NCBI GenBank assembly: GCA_944321345.1
Contig: CALUKY010000008.1
Coordinates: 29,889 to 93,888 of the forward strand
Length of the DNA stretch: 64,000 nucleotides
Direction: 5' to 3'
From: an uncultured Paraprevotella sp.
Lineage (GTDB): Bacteria; Bacteroidota; Bacteroidia; Bacteroidales; Bacteroidaceae
Positions 5,470-47,716 of the stretch are shown in pieces. Below the pieces are notes generated by a model. The model was not told the origin of the DNA. It did no database searches and worked only from the letters and a program-made list of their open reading frames with translations. Made by a program: the position numbers and the translations under genes. Within the stretch, counting starts at the first letter, position 1. Each line of letters opens with the position of its first letter.

Positions 5470-6816
5470 ATGAATCACACTTCTGTTTTAAGTTACAAGA
5501 ATCATATCCGTTCCCTTATCGCTTTGGGATTTCCGATTATCGTCGGACAAATCGGTACCATAGTACAGGGACTGGCGGACACGATCATGACCGGACAATA
5601 CAGTTCGCAGGCACTGGCCGCTGCCGGGTTTGTCAACAACGTCATGACGTTGGTCCTCATCTTTGCCATGGGATATTCTTACGGACTCACCCCGGTTGTT
5701 GGAGCCTATCATGCAAGGCAGGAGCATCAGCATATCGGACAATCACTGCGTTGCAGCCTGCAAACAAACGGCATTCTGGCCACTATCATCTTTTTGCTGA
5801 TGGGAAGCCTGTATTTCTTCCTCGACCGGTTGGGACAACCGGAAGAACTGCTTCCCATTATCCGTCCTTACTACCTGGTCATTCTGCTGTCGCTACCCTT
5901 TCAGATTCTGTTCAATGCCTACAAACAGTTCTTTGACGGAATCGGAAAAACGCAGATAGCCATGTGGATCATGATCGGTGCCAATATTTTCAATATCATC
6001 GGAAACTGGTTTCTGATTTATGGTTGGGGCCCTTTCCCCGAACTGGGACTGCTCGGTGCCGGAATCTCCACTTGCCTGTCACGCATTGGCATGTTGCTCT
6101 GTATGACCTTTATTTTCTACCGTTCAACATCCTTCCGAATCTATCAGGAAGGGTTCCGCCTTCGTGAAGGCAATCGCGAACTGCGTAAAAGACTGAACCG
6201 ATTGGGACTTCCTATCGGGTTACAGATGGGCATGGAATGCGCTTCATTCGCTCTATGTGCCGTCATGCAGGGTTGGATAGGCACCTCTGCACTGGCAGCC
6301 CATCAGATCATGACCAATGTAGCCTCGGTATGCTATATGATCTATTACGGCATCGGTGCATCTGTAGCCATACGCATCAGCCACTTTACCGGATTGAAAG
6401 ATACAGGAAACGTGCGCCGCTGTGCTTTTGCCGGTTACCGCATGATTCTGTTCTGCGGTATCGTTCTGTCGGGCCTGATGGTACTCTGTCGCAACCATAT
6501 CAGTTCATTCTTCACGGACGATCCGGCAGTCAGTGCCATTGTCATCAGTCTGATGGTTCCTTTTGTACTCTATCAATTGGGAGACGGATTACAAACAAAC
6601 TTTGCCAATGCTCTGAGAGGTATTGCCGACGTAAAACCCATGATGCGTTATGCATTTATCAGCTACATTATCATATCTCTGCCGTTAAGCTATTTTCTGG
6701 GAATTCTGTTCGGATGGGGACCGGTAGGTATTTGGATGGCCTTCCCTATAGCGCTGACTGTTGCCGGTATGCTTTTCTATTGGAGATTCAATAAAAAGAT
6801 CTCCAGGGGTATATAA
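5470..6816 (+). CDS. MATE-family multidrug/metabolite exporter
   Basis: A 448-residue, very hydrophobic protein with about twelve membrane segments. The opening GFPIIVGQIGTIVQGLADTI segment and the later repeat-like second half (LGLPIGLQMGMECASFALCAVM) are typical of the MATE fold, which exports organic cations in exchange for sodium or protons. Substrate is unknown. It is divergent from the PHP gene. Its 3' end runs directly into a symmetric hairpin that may also end a small RNA on the opposite strand. A second, different MATE gene lies at 27.9 kb. Confidence 0.85.
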   Translation: MNHTSVLSYKNHIRSLIALGFPIIVGQIGTIVQGLADTIMTGQYSSQALAAAGFVNNVMTLVLIFAMGYSYGLTPVVGAYHARQEHQHIGQSLRCSLQTNGILATIIFLLMGSLYFFLDRLGQPEELLPIIRPYYLVILLSLPFQILFNAYKQFFDGIGKTQIAMWIMIGANIFNIIGNWFLIYGWGPFPELGLLGAGISTCLSRIGMLLCMTFIFYRSTSFRIYQEGFRLREGNRELRKRLNRLGLPIGLQMGMECASFALCAVMQGWIGTSALAAHQIMTNVASVCYMIYYGIGASVAIRISHFTGLKDTGNVRRCAFAGYRMILFCGIVLSGLMVLCRNHISSFFTDDPAVSAIVISLMVPFVLYQLGDGLQTNFANALRGIADVKPMMRYAFISYIIISLPLSYFLGILFGWGPVGIWMAFPIALTVAGMLFYWRFNKKISRGI

Positions 6817-6913
6817 AAAAAGAATCCTACTTGCAATCACTGCAGGTAGGATTTTTTTAGATCTTCGCTAAGATCTCACCTTTGTTAACCTTAAATCTAA
6901 TACTATGAAAAAC
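6815..6913 (-). ncRNA. Candidate intergenic small RNA (about 100 nt)
   Basis: The minus strand between the MATE and MBL genes carries a full small transcription unit: a strong promoter (6920-6949), about 100 nt without a plausible reading frame, and an intrinsic terminator ending in C plus seven T. The expected RNA folds into a 7-bp hairpin (AGATCTT-AGCG-AAGATCT, around 6858-6875) and the terminator hairpin (6823-6853). The start is inferred as about seven bases after the -7 box. The unpaired segment after the start (ATAGTATTAGATTTAAGG) looks like a seed region. From memory, similar short elements recur in Bacteroides intergenic DNA, but I could not check this. Confidence 0.5.
6822..6858. terminator. 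Symmetric terminator shared by MATE gene and small RNA
   Basis: Stem AATCCTAC / GTAGGATT with additional inner pairing TGCA/TGCA, T-run ATTTTTTT on the + strand and CTTTTTTT on the minus strand. It can therefore stop transcription from both sides. Confidence 0.8.
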
Positions 6914-6919
6914 ACATTG

Positions 6920-36468: not shown

Positions 36469-38079
36469 GTGGCAGAAACTAAGTACATCTTCGTAACTGG
36501 CGGAGTTGCCTCTTCTTTGGGAAAAGGCATTATTTCTTCATCTATTGGTAAACTTTTACAAGCTAGAGCGTATAACATTACCATCCAAAAGTTTGACCCG
36601 TATATCAACATCGATCCGGGAACACTGAATCCATACGAGCATGGCGAATGCTATGTTACGGTAGACGGACAGGAAACCGACCTCGACCTGGGACATTACG
36701 AGCGTTTTACCGGTATCCAGACTACTCGTGCCAACAACATCACCACAGGCCGTATCTATCAAAGTGTTATCGAGAAGGAACGCCGCGGAGATTATTTGGG
36801 CAAGACTATCCAGGTGGTTCCTCATATCACAGACGAAATCAAGCGTAACATCAAGCTGATGGGCCAGAAGTACAAATTCGACTTCGTGATTACTGAAATC
36901 GGAGGTACTGTAGGAGATATCGAGTCTCTCCCATTCCTGGAGGCTATTCGTCAGCTGCGCTGGGAATTGGGCAAGAATGCCATCAACCTGCACCTGACTT
37001 ATGTTCCTTACCTGACTGCTGCCGGTGAGTTGAAGACCAAACCGACCCAGACTTCTGTAAAGCAGTTGCAGAGCTTGGGTATCCAGCCGGACATTCTGGT
37101 ATTGCGTACCGAACACGATCTGAACGTAGGCTTGCGCAAGAAAGTGGCTCACTTCTGTAATGTAGACGAAGACGCGGTAATCCAGAGCTTGGATATGCCT
37201 TCTATCTACGAAGTTCCGCTCAGCATGCAGGCTCAGAAACTGGACGAGATCATTTTGCGCAAGATGGATATGCCAATCGGAGAAACTCCGGGATTGGGTC
37301 CATGGCGTTCTTTCCTGGAGCGTCGCAACAAGGCTACAGAAATTGTCAACATCGCTCTGGTAGGTAAATACGACCTGCAGGACGCTTACAAGAGTATCCT
37401 CGAATCTTTGGCTCATGCCGGAACTTATAATGACTATAAGGTAAAGACTCATTATGTAAATAGTGAGAAGCTGACTAAGGAGAATGTAGCCGAAGCTCTT
37501 GAGGGTATGTCTGGTGTGGTTATCTGTCCGGGATTCGGTCAGAGAGGTATCGAAGGCAAGATCATCGCCGCAGAATACACCCGCACACACAATATCCCAA
37601 CCTTCGGTATCTGTCTGGGTATGCAGATGATGGTGATCGAATTCGCCCGCAACGTATTGGGTTATGCCGATGCCAACAGCCGCGAGATGGACGAGAAGAC
37701 TCTGCACAATGTCATCGACATAATGGAGGAGCAGAAGAATATCACACAGATGGGTGGAACCATGCGTCTGGGTGCTTACGAATGCGAGTTGCGTGAAGGA
37801 AGCCGTACTCTGGAGGCTTACGGTCAGAAGACCATTTCTGAGCGTCACCGTCATCGTTATGAGTTCAACAACCAGTTTACCACTGAGTTCGAGAACGCCG
37901 GCATGCAGTGCGTAGGTACCAATCCGGACAGTAATCTGGTGGAAATCGTGGAAATCCCGAACCTGAACTGGTATATCGGTACACAGTTCCATCCGGAATA
38001 CAGCAGTACTGTGTTGAAACCACATCCACTGTTCCTGTCATTCGTTAAGGCAGCTATTGATTTTAAGAATAACCAATAA
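36469..38079 (+). CDS. pyrG: CTP synthase
   Basis: Makes CTP from UTP, ATP and glutamine. The start is GTG at 36469, giving AETKYIFVTGGVASSLGKG, the standard N-terminus. The 536 residues have the synthetase domain (about 1-265) and a class I glutamine amidotransferase domain with nucleophile elbow GICLGMQ and late HPE triad residues. Codon bias is strong. yidC follows after 18 bases, probably on the same mRNA. Confidence 0.97.
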   Translation: MAETKYIFVTGGVASSLGKGIISSSIGKLLQARAYNITIQKFDPYINIDPGTLNPYEHGECYVTVDGQETDLDLGHYERFTGIQTTRANNITTGRIYQSVIEKERRGDYLGKTIQVVPHITDEIKRNIKLMGQKYKFDFVITEIGGTVGDIESLPFLEAIRQLRWELGKNAINLHLTYVPYLTAAGELKTKPTQTSVKQLQSLGIQPDILVLRTEHDLNVGLRKKVAHFCNVDEDAVIQSLDMPSIYEVPLSMQAQKLDEIILRKMDMPIGETPGLGPWRSFLERRNKATEIVNIALVGKYDLQDAYKSILESLAHAGTYNDYKVKTHYVNSEKLTKENVAEALEGMSGVVICPGFGQRGIEGKIIAAEYTRTHNIPTFGICLGMQMMVIEFARNVLGYADANSREMDEKTLHNVIDIMEEQKNITQMGGTMRLGAYECELREGSRTLEAYGQKTISERHRHRYEFNNQFTTEFENAGMQCVGTNPDSNLVEIVEIPNLNWYIGTQFHPEYSSTVLKPHPLFLSFVKAAIDFKNNQ

Positions 38080-38097: not shown

Positions 38098-39978
38098 ATG
38101 GATAAAAATACAATTATCGGTTTCATCCTGATTGCAGGCGTACTGATCGGCTTCAGCTACTACAGCCGTCCCAGTCAAGAGGAGATTCAGCAAATGCAGC
38201 GACAGGATTCTCTTGAACTCGTTGCCAAGCAGCAGGCAGAAGCCGAAATGAAAGCCAAGGAAGCGGCAGCCATCGCCCAAAAGGCAGAGGCGGCCCAGGA
38301 TTCCACTTCTCTGTTCTTCAAGAACCGTCAGGGAACGGACCAGAACATTGTATTGCAGAACAATCTGGTAAAGATCACTTTGGGAACCCGCGGCGGTATG
38401 GTTAAGGAAGCCTTGCTCAAAGACTATAAAAACCAGCAGGGAGGTCCGGTATGTCTTTTGAATGAAAAGGACGCTTCGATGAACTTTGTTCTCGAAGGAA
38501 AGAACGAGAATCTGAATTCCCGCGATTTCTTCTTCACTCCGGTAGCCGCTACCGACAGCAGCGTGACCATGCGTCTGGAAAATCAGGACGGCGGAGTGCT
38601 GGATCTGGAATACAAACTGCATAGCGATTCGTATATGCTCGACCTGAAGATTGCTTCTTCCGGTCTGGGCAAATACTTCTCACCGTCTATGAAAACCATC
38701 AACCTGTCGTGGTATGACAAAGCCATGCAGCAGGAAAAGGGTTTTGACTTTGAGAACCAATACTCTACCCTGACCTACAAGATCAAGGATGAGGGCACAG
38801 ACTATCTGAACGCCAGCGAAGACAAGACCGAGGATGTGAAAGAGCGTCTAGACTGGATTGCCTTCAAGAACCAGTTCTTCAGCTGTGTATTCATCGCGCA
38901 TCAGGACTTTACCGACGCTACTCTCTCCAGCACACCGCAGCCTAAGAACAGCGGTTATCTGAAGGAGTACAATGCGGAGATGAAGACTTTCTTCGATCCG
39001 TCGGGCAGCAAGACAACCGATTTGCAGCTTTACTTCGGCCCGAACAACTACCACATTCTGAGCAACACCAACGATCTGAGTCTCAGCGACAAGGATCTGG
39101 AGATGCAGGATCTGGTTTACTTGGGATGGCCGCTCTTCAAGTGGATCAACCGTTTCTTCATCATCTATCTGTTCGACTGGCTCAACGGTTTGGGCTTGTC
39201 TATGGGTATCGTGTTGCTGTTGCTGACCATTATCATCAAAGTATTGGTTTACCCGACAACACGCAAGTCTTACATCGCTTCGGCAAAGATGCGCGTTCTG
39301 AAGCCGAAAATCGATGCACTGAACCAGAAATATCCGGACCCGAACGACGCACTGAAGAAACAGCAGGAGATGATGCAGCTCTACAGTCAATACGGTGCCA
39401 ACCCGATGGGCGGCTGTCTGCCGATGCTCATCCAGATGCCGTTCTGGATTGCGCTCTTCAACTTTGTGCCAAACGCCATTGAGTTGCGCGGCGAGAGCTT
39501 CCTGTGGGCCAACGACCTGTCGGCATATGACGATCTGATCCGTTGGGACACTCACATCTGGCTCATCGGTGACCACATCAGCATATTCTGCCTGCTGTTC
39601 TGTGCCACCAATATCATCAACACCTGGATCAGCACCAAGCAGCAACAGTCTGCCATGAGCGGTGAACAGGCCCAGCAGATGAAGATGATGCAGTACATGA
39701 TGTATTTCATGCCTGTGTTCTTCTTCTTCATGTTCAACAATTACTCTTCAGGACTGAACTATTACTACTTCCTGTCCAGCTTGACCAGTATTCTGATCAT
39801 GTGGTATCTCAAGAAGACTACCGACGAGAAGAAACTGCTCGAGAAGATGGAGGCCAAGTATGAAGCCAACAAGAAGAATCCGAAAAAGACTTCCGGCTTT
39901 GCAGCCCGTCTGGAGGAAATGCAGAAAAAGCAACAGGCTATTCTGGAAGAACAGAAAAGAAGACAGGGACAAAAATAA
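38098..39978 (+). CDS. yidC: Membrane protein insertase YidC
   Basis: Inserts and folds inner-membrane proteins. The 626 residues begin with one membrane helix (about 5-22), then a Gram-negative-type periplasmic beta domain (about 60-340) and the five-helix insertase core from about 350 on (WLNGLGLSMGIVLLLLTIIIKVLVYP, NPMGGCLPMLIQMPFWIALF). The C-terminus is lysine-rich, able to bind ribosomes. Family length for Bacteroidetes is 600-640. A GC-rich terminator follows. Confidence 0.95.
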   Translation: MDKNTIIGFILIAGVLIGFSYYSRPSQEEIQQMQRQDSLELVAKQQAEAEMKAKEAAAIAQKAEAAQDSTSLFFKNRQGTDQNIVLQNNLVKITLGTRGGMVKEALLKDYKNQQGGPVCLLNEKDASMNFVLEGKNENLNSRDFFFTPVAATDSSVTMRLENQDGGVLDLEYKLHSDSYMLDLKIASSGLGKYFSPSMKTINLSWYDKAMQQEKGFDFENQYSTLTYKIKDEGTDYLNASEDKTEDVKERLDWIAFKNQFFSCVFIAHQDFTDATLSSTPQPKNSGYLKEYNAEMKTFFDPSGSKTTDLQLYFGPNNYHILSNTNDLSLSDKDLEMQDLVYLGWPLFKWINRFFIIYLFDWLNGLGLSMGIVLLLLTIIIKVLVYPTTRKSYIASAKMRVLKPKIDALNQKYPDPNDALKKQQEMMQLYSQYGANPMGGCLPMLIQMPFWIALFNFVPNAIELRGESFLWANDLSAYDDLIRWDTHIWLIGDHISIFCLLFCATNIINTWISTKQQQSAMSGEQAQQMKMMQYMMYFMPVFFFFMFNNYSSGLNYYYFLSSLTSILIMWYLKKTTDEKKLLEKMEAKYEANKKNPKKTSGFAARLEEMQKKQQAILEEQKRRQGQK

Positions 39979-39994
39979 AAGTTTATCATTTTAT

Positions 39995-40026
39995 GCCGGA
40001 CGTGTCTTTTCGCGTCCGGCTTTTTT
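39995..40026 (+). terminator. Terminator after yidC
   Basis: GCCGGACG / CGTCCGGC stem with TTTTTT tail. Confidence 0.85.
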
Positions 40027-40037
40027 ATACTTATCCT

Positions 40038-42236
40038 ATGAACTTTCTACACATTATGACCACCACTTTGGCACTGACGGCCGCCGCGCCGCAGCAAAGC
40101 CCTGCCGAAACTCCGGTGATCGGCAAGAATGAAATCCAACTGAAAAACGACCGGATGACTCCCGAGGCGCTTTGGGCCATGGGACGCATCGGCGGCATGA
40201 CAACCTCACCGGACGGCAAGAAGATTGCCTACACCGTGACTTACTACAGTGTGCAACAGAACAAGAGCCGCACTCTGCTCTATCTGATGAATGCCGACGG
40301 ATCGGACAAACAGCTCTTTACTCAGGGAAATGCCAGCGAGATGGAACCGCAATTCCTGGCCGACGGCAAGCACTTGGCTTTCCTGAGTACAGCCAGCGGA
40401 AAACCGGAAGTATGGCAGGCCGCTCTCGACGGAAGCGACCGCAGGCAGCTGTCGTTCACCGAACAGGGCGTACAGGGTTTCAAATTCTCTCCCGACAACA
40501 AACAGGTAATCCTGATTCAGGAAGTAGAAACCACCGCTTCTATTGAAAAAACTTACGACGATCTGCCTTTGACCAGCGGTATGGTCATCACTGATCTGAA
40601 CTATAAGCACTGGGATCATTATGTGCGCACCATTCCACATATCTTCCTGGCCAACTTCGACGGAACACGCATCTCAGACCAGATTACTGACATTCTGAAC
40701 GGAGAGCCTTACGAATGCCCGATGCTTCCGTTCGGCGGCAGCGAGCAGTTCAACTGGAGTCCCGACAGCAAAACAATCGTCTATACCTGCCGCAAGAAAA
40801 CAGGGGTGGATTATGCCATCAGCACAGACAGCGACATCTTCGCCTATGAAGTGAGCACCGGCAAGACCACCAACCTGTGCAAGCCTTCCGGTTATCAGGC
40901 TCCGAAAACAGATCCGAGCCGTTCGCTGCAGCACCAGGCCGTAAATCAGAATGCCCAGGACTGCAACATGGGTTATGACACCAATCCGCAATACTCTCCC
41001 GACGGTACGAAAGTGGCTTGGCAGAGCATGGAGCGCGACGGTTATGAAAGCGACCGCACCCGTCTGTGTGTCCTCGACCTGAAGACCGGAAAGAAAACCT
41101 ATGTGACCGAATCATTCGAGTCGGGTGTTGACGGATTCAACTGGAGCAAGGACGGCAAACTGCTTTACTTTACCGGAGTATGGCACGCCCGCAGCATGGT
41201 GTATCAGACCGACTTGAAAGGCAATGTACGCGCGCTGACCGAAGGAGATTATGACTACAGCGGTGTGGCCGACAATGGCAACCAGCTGTTGGTGATGCGC
41301 CACAGCCTCAGCGCTCCGGACGACATTTACAGCATCTCCAAAGGCAAGAAAGCCAAGATTACCCAACTGACTCAGGAAAACGAGCATATCCTCAAGCAGC
41401 TCACTTTAGGTGAGGTAAAAGAACGCTGGGTACCGACTTCAGACGGCAAGCAGGAACTCTGTTGGGTGGTTTATCCGCCACACTTCGACGCCAGCAAGAA
41501 ATACCCGGTGCTGCTCTTCTGTCAGGGCGGTCCACAGTCGCCCGTAAGCCAGTTCTGGAGCTATCGCTGGAACTTGCAGCTCATGGCGGCCAACGACTAT
41601 ATCATCGTGGCTCCTAACCGTCGCGGTCTGCCGGGCTTCGGCATGGAATGGCTGGAAGCCATCAGCGGTGACTACAGCGGCCAGTGCATGCAAGACTATT
41701 TAGATGCCATCGACAACATCGCCCAAGAACCTTATGCCGACAAGGACCGTCTGGGTTGCGTAGGTGCCAGCTTCGGAGGCTACAGCGTATATTATCTGGC
41801 CGGACACCACGACAAGCGTTTCAAGTGCTTCATCGCACACGACGGAATCTTCAACACCCAGCAGCAGTATTACGAAACCGAAGAGATGTGGTTCCCGAAC
41901 TGGGACTTGGGTGCCGGTCCATGGCGTAAAGGCATCACCAATCAGACCAACTCTCCGGAGACTGTAAATGACGGACAGAAAGTGAATCCGTACACCACCA
42001 GTCCGCATCTGTATGTTGACAAGTGGGACACTCCGATTCTGTGCATCCACGGTGAGAAGGACTACCGCATTCTGAGCTCCCAGGGCGAATCTGCCTTCAA
42101 GGCAGCCCGCATGCGTGGCATCCCGGCCGAGCTGCTTATTTTCCCGGATGAGAACCACTGGGTGCTGAAACCACAGAACGGAATCCTGTGGCAGCGCACC
42201 TTCTTCCGCTGGCTGGACCGCTGGTTAAAGAAATAA
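40038..42236 (+). CDS. Secreted S9-family dipeptidyl/oligopeptidase
   Basis: The ATG at 40038 gives 732 residues starting with a short hydrophobic signal-like segment (MNFLHIMTTTLALTAAAPQQ). Repeated beta-propeller blades with SPDGKKIAYT and SPDSKTIVYT motifs fill about 50-440. The C-terminal alpha/beta hydrolase has the nucleophile elbow GASFGGYS, an HGEKDYRI aspartate and ENHW histidine, the S9 catalytic triad. The enzyme should cleave peptides in the periplasm, and is closest in architecture to DPP5/DPP4 enzymes of Bacteroidales. The MFS gene follows after 28 bases, so peptide cleavage and transport are likely linked. Confidence 0.85.
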   Translation: MNFLHIMTTTLALTAAAPQQSPAETPVIGKNEIQLKNDRMTPEALWAMGRIGGMTTSPDGKKIAYTVTYYSVQQNKSRTLLYLMNADGSDKQLFTQGNASEMEPQFLADGKHLAFLSTASGKPEVWQAALDGSDRRQLSFTEQGVQGFKFSPDNKQVILIQEVETTASIEKTYDDLPLTSGMVITDLNYKHWDHYVRTIPHIFLANFDGTRISDQITDILNGEPYECPMLPFGGSEQFNWSPDSKTIVYTCRKKTGVDYAISTDSDIFAYEVSTGKTTNLCKPSGYQAPKTDPSRSLQHQAVNQNAQDCNMGYDTNPQYSPDGTKVAWQSMERDGYESDRTRLCVLDLKTGKKTYVTESFESGVDGFNWSKDGKLLYFTGVWHARSMVYQTDLKGNVRALTEGDYDYSGVADNGNQLLVMRHSLSAPDDIYSISKGKKAKITQLTQENEHILKQLTLGEVKERWVPTSDGKQELCWVVYPPHFDASKKYPVLLFCQGGPQSPVSQFWSYRWNLQLMAANDYIIVAPNRRGLPGFGMEWLEAISGDYSGQCMQDYLDAIDNIAQEPYADKDRLGCVGASFGGYSVYYLAGHHDKRFKCFIAHDGIFNTQQQYYETEEMWFPNWDLGAGPWRKGITNQTNSPETVNDGQKVNPYTTSPHLYVDKWDTPILCIHGEKDYRILSSQGESAFKAARMRGIPAELLIFPDENHWVLKPQNGILWQRTFFRWLDRWLKK

Positions 42237-42264
42237 ATATCAATCACTATCTTAATCAATAAAA

Positions 42265-43644
42265 ATGACAACAGTAACACAAAACATTCAGCAAAAACTC
42301 AGCGACAGCAAGGCTGCCCGCTGGACCGCCATGGCGATTGTTTCGTTCACCATGATGTGCGGTTATTTCATCACCGACGTAATGGCCCCTCTGGAGGCAA
42401 TGCTTACTACAGCCGTTGAAGACGGCGGACTGAGCTGGACCAGTGCCGAATACGGTTTCTTCTCCGGAGCTTACGGTTATATCAATGTATTTCTGCTGAT
42501 GCTCTTCTTCGGAGGTATCATTCTGGATAAGATGGGCGTGCGCTTCACCGGTGTGATGAGTTGTATTTTCATGTTCGTAGGTGCCGCCATCAAATGGTAT
42601 GCCATCTCTCATACCTTTGGAGACGCAACAGTATTCGGTTTTCCGGCTCAGGTGGCTCTGGCCGCTTTTGGTTTCGCCGTATTCGGTATGGGTGCCGAGA
42701 TTACCGGTATCACCGTGTCCAAGGTTATCGTAAAATGGTTTACCGGACATGAACTGGCGCTGGCCATGGGTCTTCAGGTTGCCATGGCCCGTATCGGAAC
42801 CGCTGCGGCTCTGGCCTGCAGTCTTCCTATAGCCAACGCCATGGGCGACATCTCTGCTCCTATCCTTTTCGGTGCCATCTGCCTGTGCATCGGTCTGATT
42901 GCCTATATAGTTTACTGCGTGATGGACCGCAAGCTCGACCAGTCAGTACAGACAACCGAAAACGCGGAAAAAGAAGAAGGCTTCCAGATGAGCGACCTGA
43001 AGCAGATCTTCACCAACAAAGGTTTCTGGCTCATCACTATCCTTTGCCTGATGTTCTACGCCGGAGTCTTCCCGTTCCTGAAGTTTGCCACAAAACTGAT
43101 GATCTACAAATACCAAGTAGAGCCTCAGCTGGCCGGTATGATTCCTGCAATGTTGCCGTTCGGAACCATCCTGCTTACCCCGCTGTTCGGTTCTATCTAC
43201 GACCGTATCGGTAAGGGCGCCACACTGATGATTATCGGTTCACTGATGCTCACCGTTGTGCATGTACTTTTCGCCCTGCCGATCCTGAACGTATGGTGGT
43301 TTGCCATCATCGTGATGATTCTGCTGGGTATTGCCTTCTCATTGGTGCCGTCGGCCATGTGGCCTTCCGTTCCGAAGATCATTCCGATGAAACAGTTAGG
43401 TTCTGCCTATGCCATCATTTTCTACATTCAGAACATCGGTCTGTCCATGGTTCCGGTACTGATCGGTTGGGTTATCGAGAAGTATGCCACCATCCAGACA
43501 GCCGAGGGCGTTACTTATGACTACACCCTGCCGATGGTTATCTTTGCCGTATTCGGCTTCATCGCCATCCTGATTGCGCTGATGCTGAAGAAAGAAGACG
43601 GCATCAAGAACTACGGACTTGAAAAGAGCAATATTCAAAAATAA
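42265..43644 (+). CDS. MFSD1-like MFS transporter, probable dipeptide carrier
   Basis: A 459-residue 12-segment MFS protein. Several stretches recall, residue pattern for pattern, human MFSD1, a lysosomal dipeptide uniporter: the GMGAEI...VKWFTGHELALAMGLQ segment, VAMARIGT, the LLGIAFSLVPSAMWP helix and KQLGSAYAIIFYIQNIGLS. The comparison is from memory. Adjacent location behind a secreted dipeptidyl peptidase fits import of dipeptides. A role for other small metabolites is not excluded. A terminator lies about 140 bases downstream. Confidence 0.75.
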   Translation: MTTVTQNIQQKLSDSKAARWTAMAIVSFTMMCGYFITDVMAPLEAMLTTAVEDGGLSWTSAEYGFFSGAYGYINVFLLMLFFGGIILDKMGVRFTGVMSCIFMFVGAAIKWYAISHTFGDATVFGFPAQVALAAFGFAVFGMGAEITGITVSKVIVKWFTGHELALAMGLQVAMARIGTAAALACSLPIANAMGDISAPILFGAICLCIGLIAYIVYCVMDRKLDQSVQTTENAEKEEGFQMSDLKQIFTNKGFWLITILCLMFYAGVFPFLKFATKLMIYKYQVEPQLAGMIPAMLPFGTILLTPLFGSIYDRIGKGATLMIIGSLMLTVVHVLFALPILNVWWFAIIVMILLGIAFSLVPSAMWPSVPKIIPMKQLGSAYAIIFYIQNIGLSMVPVLIGWVIEKYATIQTAEGVTYDYTLPMVIFAVFGFIAILIALMLKKEDGIKNYGLEKSNIQK

Positions 43645-43781: not shown

Positions 43782-43829
43782 AAAAAAGGTGCAGAAAGGG
43801 AAAGTTCTCCTTTTCTGCACCTTTTTCAT
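43782..43829. terminator. Bidirectional terminator between MFSD1-like and secreted protein genes
   Basis: AAAAAGGTGCAGAAA pairs with TTTCTGCACCTTTTT; T-runs occur on both strands. The preceding 140 bases (43645-43781) hold nothing recognised. Confidence 0.8.
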
Positions 43830-43852: not shown

Positions 43853-44902
43853 CTACCAGCCCATCGGTTCATACTGATACAGACTGAGCGGTGAACTATC
43901 TGTATCTGCCGGTGAACTGCGGATATAGTCCACAAAAATCCATTTGCTGCTTTGAGGATTATATGCAGCTTTCAGATAGCGCCCCGGAAAGATTTTCCCA
44001 TCCAGAGTGTAGAGATAATCGAAACTCCAGGCCGGAATATCATCAAGCACCTGCTGCAACACTCCCAACAGTTTCTGCTGAGGACCGGAAAGTTTTTCAG
44101 GCTTCAGGGCGCGCACCTTGAGCTTACCGTCCTTCTGAATCTGCAACAACAAAGAGAAACCGACCAATCTTTTTTCTCCAGCCACAGATTCACCCGATTT
44201 CCGTTCGCGCCACAATCGGTTCACGTCGTGAGTAAAGAAGACACATTCGTATTCCGCCATCTCCAACCAATGCGGATTTCCCACAACGCCAACCCGCAAT
44301 GCGCTTGCCTCCTCGCGGTAGGCTCCGCACGCATAGATAGCTTCCCGGTCTTTTTCAGAAATTCCATTCTTGACGACTTCCCGGTACAGACGGGGAGAAA
44401 CGATCTGATTCATATAAGGAGTGGGACGATACAGGGTATAGCAGGTTCCGGAAACCCAGAAGCAGAAAACTCCCGGCTGCTTCGCATCGGCAGGCGTACC
44501 GGTTTTCTCCTGCAAGGCACGAAACAGATTCTGAGCCTTTTCAGTATCCTGATTCAGAGATTCGAGTTCATAAATCATCATCCGGAATGGCGGGCGACCG
44601 TCCTTCGAATCACAACCATATATCACACTGGCACGGATAGAATCAGCAGACTGGACCTGTTTGTCCGGACAATTTTCCAGTACACGGACATTGGTCAGCG
44701 CATAATATTTGCTGACCCGGTCGTTCGGAATCCAGGCCTTGGTGCGTTTCTGACCGAATACCTTGTGAAATCCGTCTACCATTTCCTGTTCGGACACAAA
44801 AGGAAGATTGGCTTCATGGGCTTTAACCGGCTCATAGTTTTGGGCTTCCAATACGGAAAACAGTGCCACAAAAGCACTGACAAATAAAAAGAATCGTTTC
44901 AT
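43853..44902 (-). CDS. Secreted protein of unknown function
   Basis: A 349-residue protein with a signal peptide (MKRFFLFVSAFVALFSVLEAQ, cleavage about residue 20-21). The remainder is a mixed alpha/beta sequence rich in aromatic residues, with five or so cysteines spread through the middle and no recognised catalytic motif. No lipobox is present, so it should be soluble in the periplasm or exported further. It lies downstream of a DUF4488-like gene and a scrap of a second copy of that family. Confidence 0.55.
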   Translation of the reverse strand: MKRFFLFVSAFVALFSVLEAQNYEPVKAHEANLPFVSEQEMVDGFHKVFGQKRTKAWIPNDRVSKYYALTNVRVLENCPDKQVQSADSIRASVIYGCDSKDGRPPFRMMIYELESLNQDTEKAQNLFRALQEKTGTPADAKQPGVFCFWVSGTCYTLYRPTPYMNQIVSPRLYREVVKNGISEKDREAIYACGAYREEASALRVGVVGNPHWLEMAEYECVFFTHDVNRLWRERKSGESVAGEKRLVGFSLLLQIQKDGKLKVRALKPEKLSGPQQKLLGVLQQVLDDIPAWSFDYLYTLDGKIFPGRYLKAAYNPQSSKWIFVDYIRSSPADTDSSPLSLYQYEPMGW

Positions 44903-45672: not shown

Positions 45673-46827
45673 CTATGAGCTCACTTCATACCGTCCCTGA
45701 TAACATTTATAGAAGATGACAGTCAGAATAAAGCCGACCAACGCAAAGGGAACTCCCATCAATGCCGCATACTGCACTCCACCTGCTACAGCAAGCCCAC
45801 CAGCATATGCCCCTATCGCATTACCCAGATTGAACGCCATCTGTATGCTGGCTCCTCCCAACATCTCGCCGCCCGGAGCCACACGGATGATCAACAGCTG
45901 CTCCGGACTGGACACAGCAAAAAGTCCGGCCGTGCAGAGAAACATCAGCGCCGCCGAAATCCAAGGGTTGGGAGACAGGAAAAAGATACCGATCAAAACC
46001 AGACAGATGCCACCCTGCGACACCATTAAAACGCGACCGGGCGTATAACGGTCGGACATACGGCCACTGACCAGATTGCCCACAACCATACCAAATCCGG
46101 CCAGAACCATCAGTGCGGTGATACTGTTTTCCGAAAAACCAGAAACCTGAGTCAGCAGAGGACTGATATAACTGTACCAGCAGAACACACCGCCATTACC
46201 CAAAGCCGTAGCCCCCAAAATCAGCCAGGGAGCCGGGCGACGGAGGAAGCGGAACTGCCCCTTGAAACCATTGTCCTGCAAGCCTTCAACCGCCGGAACC
46301 CATCGCCAGATGTAATAAAACACGATGATTCCCCAAATGCCTACAAACAGGAACGTGGTGCGCCAGGATACAAGATGACTCAACGAAGTGCCCAAAGGAA
46401 CACCAAACAGGTTGGCCACAGTCATTCCCGCAATCATGATGGAAACGGCTTCCGAACTCTTACCTTTGTCCGCCAGTTTGGAGGCCACTATGGAAGCCAC
46501 TCCGAAATAAGCGCCATGAGGCAGACCGGAAACGAAACGCCCGATCATCATCACCCAATAATTGGGAGCAAAAGAGGTACACAGATTTCCCACAACAATC
46601 AGCGAAACAAGGGCCATAAGCAAATGCTTCAGCGATTTCTTCCGGGCGAGAATCAGGACCGGAGCACCGAAACAGACACCTAGCGCATAGGCCGATATCA
46701 GATGGCCGGCCTCTGAGATACTGATTCCGAATTCGGAAGCTACATAAGGCAATATACCCATCATGGTAAACTCAGCCATTCCGAGAGCCAGAGTACCGAA
46801 TGCCAATGCAATAAGACTTTTCTTCAT
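45673..46827 (-). CDS. AraJ-like MFS exporter
   Basis: The ATG at 46827 gives 384 residues beginning MKKSLIALAFGTLALGMAEF, the start typical of this DHA1 subgroup of sugar and drug efflux proteins; upstream in-frame residues are not family-like. Twelve membrane segments are expected, with the GRFVSGLPHGAYFGV and GRMSDRYTPGRVL segments visible. Resembles AraJ-type arabinose/drug efflux pumps. Substrate unknown; monocistronic. Confidence 0.8.
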   Translation of the reverse strand: MKKSLIALAFGTLALGMAEFTMMGILPYVASEFGISISEAGHLISAYALGVCFGAPVLILARKKSLKHLLMALVSLIVVGNLCTSFAPNYWVMMIGRFVSGLPHGAYFGVASIVASKLADKGKSSEAVSIMIAGMTVANLFGVPLGTSLSHLVSWRTTFLFVGIWGIIVFYYIWRWVPAVEGLQDNGFKGQFRFLRRPAPWLILGATALGNGGVFCWYSYISPLLTQVSGFSENSITALMVLAGFGMVVGNLVSGRMSDRYTPGRVLMVSQGGICLVLIGIFFLSPNPWISAALMFLCTAGLFAVSSPEQLLIIRVAPGGEMLGGASIQMAFNLGNAIGAYAGGLAVAGGVQYAALMGVPFALVGFILTVIFYKCYQGRYEVSS

Positions 46828-46881
46828 AATTCTATACCTGAAAACAATACCTTTTGAAAAACACTTTTTTAAAAAACGATG

Positions 46882-46889
46882 CAAAATTA
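46882..46889 (-). promoter_or_regulatory. Probable -7 element of the AraJ-like gene
   Basis: TAATTTTG on the minus strand, 54 bases before the ATG. The -33 box is not convincing. Confidence 0.35.
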
Positions 46890-47004
46890 CAAAGAAAAAA
46901 CGCAAAAGGTACACCTGTAAATACGATTTCTCGGAAAAAGAATCTTTCCCTCCTGCCTCATTTTTACGATAAGGTCTGCGCAAAATCGTCAGCATCAAAA
47001 CAAA

Positions 47005-47046
47005 AAAATCGTCCTGATGATTTTTGAAAAACATCAGAACGATTTT
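47005..47046. terminator. Terminator downstream of the HD-domain gene
   Basis: AAAATCGTCCTGATG pairs with CATCAGAACGATTTT with one mismatch around a 12-base A/T loop, T-rich on the minus strand side. Confidence 0.7.
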
Positions 47047-47068
47047 ATCAGCGCATAATTCGTTTGAA

Positions 47069-47716
47069 TCACAAGATGTTACCGGCCGGACATGCAGACT
47101 CGGTTTCCTCCGTAAAAATCCTCTCAAAAATCTCATGCAGCCGCTCTTCATCTTTCAGAATCCCACGGATGTCCTGCAATCTCGCCGCATTGTCCGACTG
47201 CGGAATCCAAAGTTTCAGATAGCCGCCTTCGCCGTATTTCGTGATCAGATGATCCCGAAAACGGAGAAAATGCTCTTCCAGACTCATTTCGGGATAATGC
47301 GAAAGTCCGTACTGCACCGTACGCCGGAAAGTAGTTTCGGCATCGATAACCCGATCGGCCTCAGAAACAATCTTGCCGTAAATACTGCGTGGCTCGTGCC
47401 TGTTCGAAGCCCGATGATCCTCCACGGCCTCTTTCATCAGTCGGATTTCCTCCTCGGAAAACCAGTAGCGCAGCTTCCGGTCGGCCTGCAGCAAACAGCC
47501 CGAAACCAGATGATGACGCTCCCGCCCTTCCACCAGTCCCACATCGTGATAGGCGGCAATGACATAAACCATGTCGGGATTCACCTCATAATACTGTGCC
47601 AGACGAAGACTCTCCTGAATCACCCGTTCCACATGATCGTTCTGATGTGCCTTGTCGAAAGAGGTGTATCGGGGCAAGATTTCCGATTCGATATAATCAA
47701 CACATTCCTGATTCAT
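47069..47716 (-). CDS. HD-domain phosphohydrolase
   Basis: A 215-residue cytoplasmic HD-fold protein. Metal ligands are H28 (NDHVERV), H57-D58 (AAYHDVG), the EDHR motif and the later SEADRV aspartate. HD proteins hydrolyse nucleotides or nucleotide second messengers; the particular substrate is unknown. It is 12 bases downstream of the secreted phosphoesterase gene and shares its strand and probably its mRNA. Confidence 0.8.
   Translation of the reverse strand: MNQECVDYIESEILPRYTSFDKAHQNDHVERVIQESLRLAQYYEVNPDMVYVIAAYHDVGLVEGRERHHLVSGCLLQADRKLRYWFSEEEIRLMKEAVEDHRASNRHEPRSIYGKIVSEADRVIDAETTFRRTVQYGLSHYPEMSLEEHFLRFRDHLITKYGEGGYLKLWIPQSDNAARLQDIRGILKDEERLHEIFERIFTEETESACPAGNIL

Follow-up and report, generated by a model that had tools for sequence, protein, structure and literature searches.

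Within a 64,000-nucleotide stretch of contig CALUKY010000008.1 from an uncultured Paraprevotella sp. (GenBank assembly GCA_944321345.1; this whole stretch is called the window), a gene for an S9 family peptidase is followed on the same strand by a gene for a major facilitator superfamily (MFS) carrier resembling the animal protein MFSD1, which raises the question of whether the two act together in the harvest of dipeptides. An earlier note on this DNA had described a secreted S9 peptidase gene and, after 28 bases, an MFS gene, and had proposed that the peptidase releases dipeptides that the carrier imports. Both genes were located as described, and the evidence assembled here suggests that they probably constitute a dipeptide-harvest unit, in which a DPP5-type peptidase feeds an MFSD1-like importer.

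Passages of two papers describe MFSD1 as a lysosomal dipeptide uniporter that works with the protein GLMP (PMC11252000, PMC10990142). In a phmmer search of 177,635 distinct PDB sequences, MFSD1 (8r8q) was the sole match of the window carrier at E<=1, with an E-value of 4.7e-33. A profile of 48 sequences, made up of the window protein and 47 relatives that are 31-77% identical to it, again gave MFSD1 (1.9e-66; threshold E<=0.01), followed by a solute carrier organic anion transporter at 0.0036. In both searches MFSD1 is the nearest MFS protein of solved structure, with no other tied to the carrier at comparable strength, and these E-values put the similarity far beyond chance; overall, 107 of 364 residues are identical (29%). 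The segments that the earlier note had listed as common to the two proteins (ARIG, LG-AY...IQN-GL and SL...WP) do occur in the alignment, with some slips of spelling, as MFSD1 reads IQNLGL and SL and WP stand five residues apart. No match to the POT family (PF00854) was obtained at E<=0.001, nor to the OPT family (PF03169). The model of the L-lactate MFS carrier SfMCT (NF049980) gave a weak, near-full-length match of 50.1 bits, far below its cut-off of 320, and no SfMCT-type PDB structure was matched at the thresholds used. In agreement with the description as a 12-helix MFS protein, an AlphaFold model of the carrier has 12 long helices (pLDDT 80.3, pTM 0.81).

The residues that contact the substrate in MFSD1 are conserved beyond this general similarity. 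In passages of the structural work, Y56, Y59, E150, Q176, R181, Y276, F280, Y365, W373, Q393, Q396, N397 and L400 form the dipeptide site and D60 lies close to the dipeptide side chain, while E150 holds the N-terminus of the peptide and R181 its C-terminus, forming a clamp on both dipeptide ends; among the mutants Y56A, D60A, E150A, Q176K, R181A and W373A, most lost transport in uptake assays and Y56A kept about half (PMC11252000). Eleven of the 14 MFSD1 pocket residues are identical in the window carrier, compared with the 107 of 364 overall (hypergeometric P 1.5e-4), and 8 of the 14 positions are invariant in the 48 sequences, window included, compared with 34 of 459 columns (P 9e-7), both tests treating positions as independent. 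D60, E150, R181, W373, Q396 and N397 all have identical counterparts in the window carrier and, except for D60, are invariant among the 48 sequences, while the position of Q176 is occupied by Gln in 23 and Glu in 18. Furthermore, 28 matches from a sample of the phylum, two of which (L010 and L011) also belong to the 48 sequences, keep the pocket except at positions 37, 171, 386, 390 and 393, and the position of Y59 is Tyr, as in MFSD1, in all 26 others. Dipeptide import by the carrier is therefore a prediction well supported by sequence.

The upstream partner scores 1052.6 bits with NF053518, the NCBI equivalog model for dipeptidyl-peptidase Dpp5, whose cut-off is 900, and also matches PF00326 (E 1.9e-51). 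Its Ser, Asp and His motifs are all present, and the catalytic roles of these residues are presumed from established knowledge of S9 peptidases. The DPP5 proteins of paired relatives have hydrophobic, export-type N-termini, several with lipobox-like cysteines, as judged by eye only. The window peptidase is predicted to be exported and, by its model match, to act as a dipeptidyl peptidase. Passages on the DPP5 of Porphyromonas gingivalis describe a periplasmic enzyme whose P1 preference is for Ala and hydrophobic residues and whose best substrate is Lys-Ala-MCA (PMC8048996).

In the proposed mechanism, exported DPP5 would act in the periplasm on oligopeptides, taking dipeptides off their N-terminal ends. 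As with the P. gingivalis enzyme, the released dipeptides would end in Ala or a hydrophobic residue, with Lys-Ala the most favored. The carrier would then bind the dipeptide between Glu145, at the N-terminus, and Arg176, at the C-terminus, and pass it to the cytosol, which is the same topological direction as that of MFSD1 in the lysosome, and cytosolic PepD-type dipeptidases would split it. If the carrier is a uniporter like MFSD1, the production of dipeptides outside and their hydrolysis inside would supply the drive. Such a pull by hydrolysis would explain why PepD is a frequent neighbor of the carrier in other branches of the family, as described below.

The joint occurrence of the two genes was surveyed in a set of 80 loci from named records, 76 of which have a called carrier gene (L244-L247 were dropped). 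A neighbor was counted as DPP5 at >45% identity within three genes, and all neighbor counts rest on longest-open-frame gene calls, not annotated genes. DPP5 lies upstream of the carrier on the same strand in 27 of the 76 loci, and in 22 of these at most 73 bases separate the coding ends. The closest named record, Candidatus Paraprevotella stercoravium (L217), shares 98% protein identity in the carrier and 94% DNA identity over 7.4 kb. In the window, pyrG, yidC, the peptidase gene and the carrier gene all lie on the + strand, so the pair could be a case of passive adjacency, two unlinked genes standing side by side behind pyrG-yidC. That arrangement recurs in L217, L222, L223 and L286, and among the fetched genomes of the order the pair itself occurs in the window only. 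However, yidC-pyrG is found further upstream in only these 4 of the 27 pairs, and different genes precede the others. As the genes upstream differ in 23 of the 27 pairs (three of which, L274, L276 and L278, have less than about 1.3 kb of upstream sequence) while order and strand are still kept, the pair has been kept together in changed surroundings. Additionally, in the window, L217, L222 and L223 a terminator-like hairpin stands between yidC and the pair, and with these observations passive adjacency becomes quite improbable.

The hairpin between yidC and the pair is strong in L217, L222 and L223 at the equivalent place, with a different sequence in L222 and L223, and is absent from L286, where yidC and dpp5 abut. 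A second terminator-like site lies 3' of the carrier gene. In the consensus scan for terminators, 10 sites were found compared with 4.2 expected in shuffled sequence, which makes single sites weak evidence. With terminator-like hairpins on both flanks, the pair looks like a unit of its own. No promoter for the pair was found, as the 3 sigma-70-like sites compare with 3.4 expected in a scan that is unsuited to Bacteroidota. The open frame of the peptidase begins at ATG 39993, which was rejected as the start in favor of the in-frame ATG at 40038, the likelier start because ATG 39993 abuts the hairpin at 39995-40020.

In other branches, the most frequent partner of the carrier is PepD, a family of enzymes that split dipeptides. 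Unbiased clustering of the genes within four genes of the carrier gave PepD as the top neighbor family, present in 26 of 133 loci (the window, the order-genome loci, and L090 and L091 from the phylum sample). From this set L194 was dropped, as was L313 from the set of distant loci described below; tblastn does find the carrier in both. PepD is immediately adjacent in 19 of the 133 loci, on the same strand in all 19, downstream in 13 and upstream in 6, compared with about 0.2 expected from two PepD genes per roughly 3000 genes, a rough figure that ignores kinship. The assignment agrees with the PepD model TIGR01893, which gave 604.7 bits for L074 and 614.9 bits for L091 (cut-off 343.75). A quick tree was made from a thinned set of 146 rows, with labelled rows taken first, by a quick search with no mixture model; it comprises the carrier family and MFSD1, which sits on a long branch, without other MFS families, and its DPP5 label missed L295. 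Because this tree, in which gain and loss are indistinguishable, requires 17 state changes for its 18 rows with an adjacent PepD, the adjacency is not one inherited arrangement.

Other genes of peptide use surround the carrier as well. An S9 peptidase, PepD and the carrier stand in a row in L074 and L183, although with 106.2 bits the S9 peptidase of L074 falls far short of the DPP5 cut-off, and a POT gene lies directly downstream of the carrier in L073 and L287. Twenty distant loci, from genomes marked as sharing the phylum only, were fetched from the 30 phylum-sample genomes with a match besides the window's genome, G180 and G196. Among the 19 with a called carrier, the stretches fetched around it contain an M29 peptidase in 17, a PqqD-like protein in 14, an OPT carrier in 12 and PepD in 10, all on the carrier strand. 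Also on the carrier strand, in 13 of the 19, is a protein of about 250 residues with no Pfam match and unknown function (e.g., L297:7445-8203). Together with the conserved MFSD1 pocket, this company of PepD, POT, OPT and M29 genes lends support to the idea in the earlier note that the carrier would import what the peptidase releases. Two further families recur within four genes of the carrier, a DUF4831 family (one member scanned; L077:10701-11909 and similar) in 12 of the 133 loci and a family in 9 of them that is presumably YjeF-like.

The same neighborhoods bear on the direction of transport. Some E. coli MFS pumps export dipeptides or peptide-like compounds, and the window carrier could do likewise, relieving a build-up of such compounds in the cytosol. 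A uniporter can run in both directions, and the carrier gives a weak, sub-threshold score of 30.1 bits with the Bcr/CflA model of efflux proteins, whose cut-off is 200.9. However, the carrier is paired with an exported peptidase, relatives are linked with OPT and POT carrier genes and with peptidase genes, and the homologue MFSD1 moves dipeptides towards the cytosol, all of which make export highly improbable.

Several observations weigh against the harvest unit as proposed here. In the structural comparison that the earlier note had called for, MFSD1 ranks first by Foldseek E-value (1.7e-11, 24% identity), yet among the matches listed its TM-score of 0.63 is exceeded by other MFS folds, with FLVCR1 at 0.75. 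The fold was thus rejected as proof of kinship with MFSD1, since the model alone shows only membership of the MFS. The residues Y59, Y365 and Q393 of MFSD1 are replaced by T, F and F in the window carrier, and 8 of 9 listed MFSD1 gate residues differ, so the specificity may differ from that of MFSD1; identity at all pocket and gate residues is not known as a requirement for membership of the MFSD1 family. Animal MFSD1 also needs GLMP, according to passages of the papers on the protein (PMC11252000, PMC10990142). As for the gene neighborhoods, 49 of the 76 named-record loci lack an upstream DPP5 (4 of the 49 have less than 2.5 kb of upstream sequence), and many of the pair loci are close kin, so that they do not amount to 27 independent events. 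The sample of the order comprises 149 genomes, of which at least 122 have a carrier match (E<=1e-15) among the matches listed, and 148 have matches to the DPP5 model, 110 of them above the cut-off. Besides the window's own genome 121 have a carrier match, and loci were fetched from 120 of these and from the window's own, some carriers lying near contig ends; among the carrier copies listed DPP5 stands beside the carrier in the window only. Partnership with DPP5 is therefore branch-specific. The survey of the gene pair across Bacteroidetes suggested in the earlier note thus yields DPP5 pairs in the named records and S9-PepD-carrier rows in L074 and L183, while a module conserved throughout the order or phylum was rejected. 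As far as these searches reach, neither a kinship with other MFS groups nor a lack of S9 genes nearby, which the earlier note had named as refuting outcomes, was borne out. PepD, for its part, occurs within six genes of the carrier in only one of the 76 named-record loci (L287), where it lies 5.9 kb off on the other strand, and none is near the carrier in the window itself. As the named-record set includes the window's branch and PepD is unlinked there, what PepD adds to the argument is drawn from other branches. Two PepD matches and two POT loci were counted in the window's genome, which thus probably has further routes for dipeptides besides this carrier.

The differences in pocket and gate also leave room for a carrier of another kind. 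The broad Transporter Classification (TC) group 2.A.1.53 also holds bacterial amino-acid carriers, and the window protein could belong to the group while moving single amino acids or small metabolites, with its peptidase neighbors reflecting general amino-acid nutrition. The M29 peptidases of the distant loci are aminopeptidases and would yield single amino acids. MFSD1 itself is listed under TC 2.A.1.53 in passages of a solute carrier survey (PMC9333335), and three pocket positions and most gate residues of the window carrier are unlike those of MFSD1. On the other hand, the positions of E150 and R181, which set dipeptide length in MFSD1, are invariant, and PepD by family knowledge splits dipeptides while DPP5 makes them, so an amino-acid carrier is unlikely, and import of dipeptides released by DPP5 is the preferred reading.

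In comparison with known systems, the window carrier is most like MFSD1, with which it shares sequence, pocket and a predicted direction of transport; it differs in being bacterial, in most gate residues, in the linkage of the bacterial genes with peptidases, and in the large insertions of several bacterial forms. The selectivity of MFSD1 is itself given differently in passages of the two deorphanisation papers, as general in one (PMC11252000) and as restricted to cationic dipeptides in the other (PMC10990142). The likeness to P. gingivalis lies in a periplasmic DPP5 feeding an inner-membrane dipeptide carrier, an arrangement predicted for the window pair. Passages on P. gingivalis credit its dipeptide uptake to POT and OPT carriers and name SstT, POT and OPT with no MFSD1-like protein (PMC8048996), whereas the window carrier is MFSD1-like. 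With the POT/PTR2 family the carrier shares the MFS fold, dipeptides as predicted substrates, and the POT genes that directly follow MFSD1-like genes in L073 and L287, while its first helix lacks the motif ExxERFxYY, as given in passages of PMC10990142.

No paper on a bacterial MFSD1 relative or its dipeptide role was found among the matches listed from the open-licence PubMed Central literature, where one topic returned the best 20 of 27,494 and says little. A bacterial relative goes unmentioned in the passages at hand of PMC11252000, PMC10990142 and two solute carrier surveys (one of them PMC9333335), another paper on MFSD1, searched by term, contains no word beginning with bacteria or prokaryot, and a survey of transporters in Bacteroides (PMC6281302) uses neither dipeptide nor oligopeptide as a word in its main text.

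Table 1. Coordinates of the gene pair, its flanks and its candidate functional residues in the window
Feature	Position	Strand	Basis or remark
pyrG	36469-38079	+	upstream of yidC
yidC	38098-39978	+	between pyrG and the S9 peptidase frame
S9 peptidase open frame	39993-42236	+	preferred start 40038
Terminator-like hairpin and T run	39995..40020	+	between yidC and the pair; -20.7 kcal/mol, z -5.8
DPP5-type S9 dipeptidyl peptidase, hydrophobic N-terminus	40038..42236	+	NF053518, PF00326
Presumed catalytic Ser codon, motif GASFGG, residue 593 of the 747-residue frame	41769..41771	+	motif position
Presumed catalytic Asp codon, motif HGEKDYR, residue 690	42060..42062	+	motif position
Presumed catalytic His codon, motif DENHW, residue 722	42156..42158	+	motif position
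MFSD1-like MFS carrier, 459 residues, predicted dipeptide importer	42265..43644	+	homology, profile, pocket, AlphaFold, Foldseek
Asp38, aligned with MFSD1 D60	42376..42378	+	D in 42, E in 4, Y in 2 of 48
Glu145, aligned with MFSD1 E150	42697..42699	+	48/48; role in MFSD1 from passages of PMC11252000
Arg176, aligned with MFSD1 R181	42790..42792	+	48/48; role in MFSD1 from passages of PMC11252000
Trp366, aligned with MFSD1 W373	43360..43362	+	48/48
Gln389-Asn390, aligned with MFSD1 Q396-N397	43429..43434	+	48/48 each
Terminator-like hairpin 3' of the carrier gene	43783..43826	+	consensus scan only

Elsewhere in the window, a DUF5030 protein of unknown function (43853-44902, - strand) adjoins the pair on the opposite strand, a second MFS gene lies further downstream (45673-47151, - strand; AraJ model 538.6 bits, cut-off 499), and an Rfam match to the Bacteroidetes FopS small RNA family is found at 6812-6915 on the - strand (58.8 bits, gathering score 56). 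In many Alistipes and Rikenellaceae records, a protein of about 664 residues upstream of the carrier was considered as a peptidase and rejected, as it proved to be a TPR protein in the three loci scanned (L221, L226 and L235). In many of the loci L225-L243, which bear these labels, this TPR-repeat protein precedes the carrier behind a GTPase gene, presumably era to judge by its first residues.

Among 15 relatives that were aligned, seven (L092, L094, L095, L099, L103, L106 and L185) have the loop that joins helices 11 and 12 lengthened by 105-217 residues, at window residues 414-416. Inserts are also found in the helix 1-2 loop of L249 and L280, of the Bacteroides/Phocaeicola type, and in the helix 7-8 loop of L084, L110 and L197, and all these loops are predicted to be extracytoplasmic. 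Four of the proteins were scanned and gave no Pfam family above cut-off in the insertions, with one sub-threshold match to DUF4179. The helix 11-12 loop should match the GLMP contact site on MFSD1 (Tyr416), a residue three positions beyond the end of the phmmer alignment. A broader and more tentative proposal, thought doubtful in its full extent, is that bacterial dipeptide carriers form an old family, of which MFSD1 would be the animal branch. The Bacteroidota members would be uniporters driven by DPP5 or other S9 peptidases outside and PepD inside, lysosomal dipeptide export would re-use a bacterial periplasm-to-cytosol module, and the helix 11-12 insertion of some bacterial forms, lying in the GLMP-docking loop, might do part of the job of GLMP in cis.

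From its sequence and gene context, the window carrier appears to represent a bacterial branch of a transporter family that is known from animals, its genes being found in clusters for peptide harvest. Its occurrence in at least 122 of the 149 order genomes points to a further widespread family of putative dipeptide carriers, with a specific predicted substrate and named candidate residues, and would mean that gut Bacteroidota have a so far unrecognised dipeptide importer. The family is present in culturable species, with Bacteroides fragilis and Phocaeicola plebeius represented among the named loci, and if the proposed function is true, it would provide a simple bacterial model for MFSD1.

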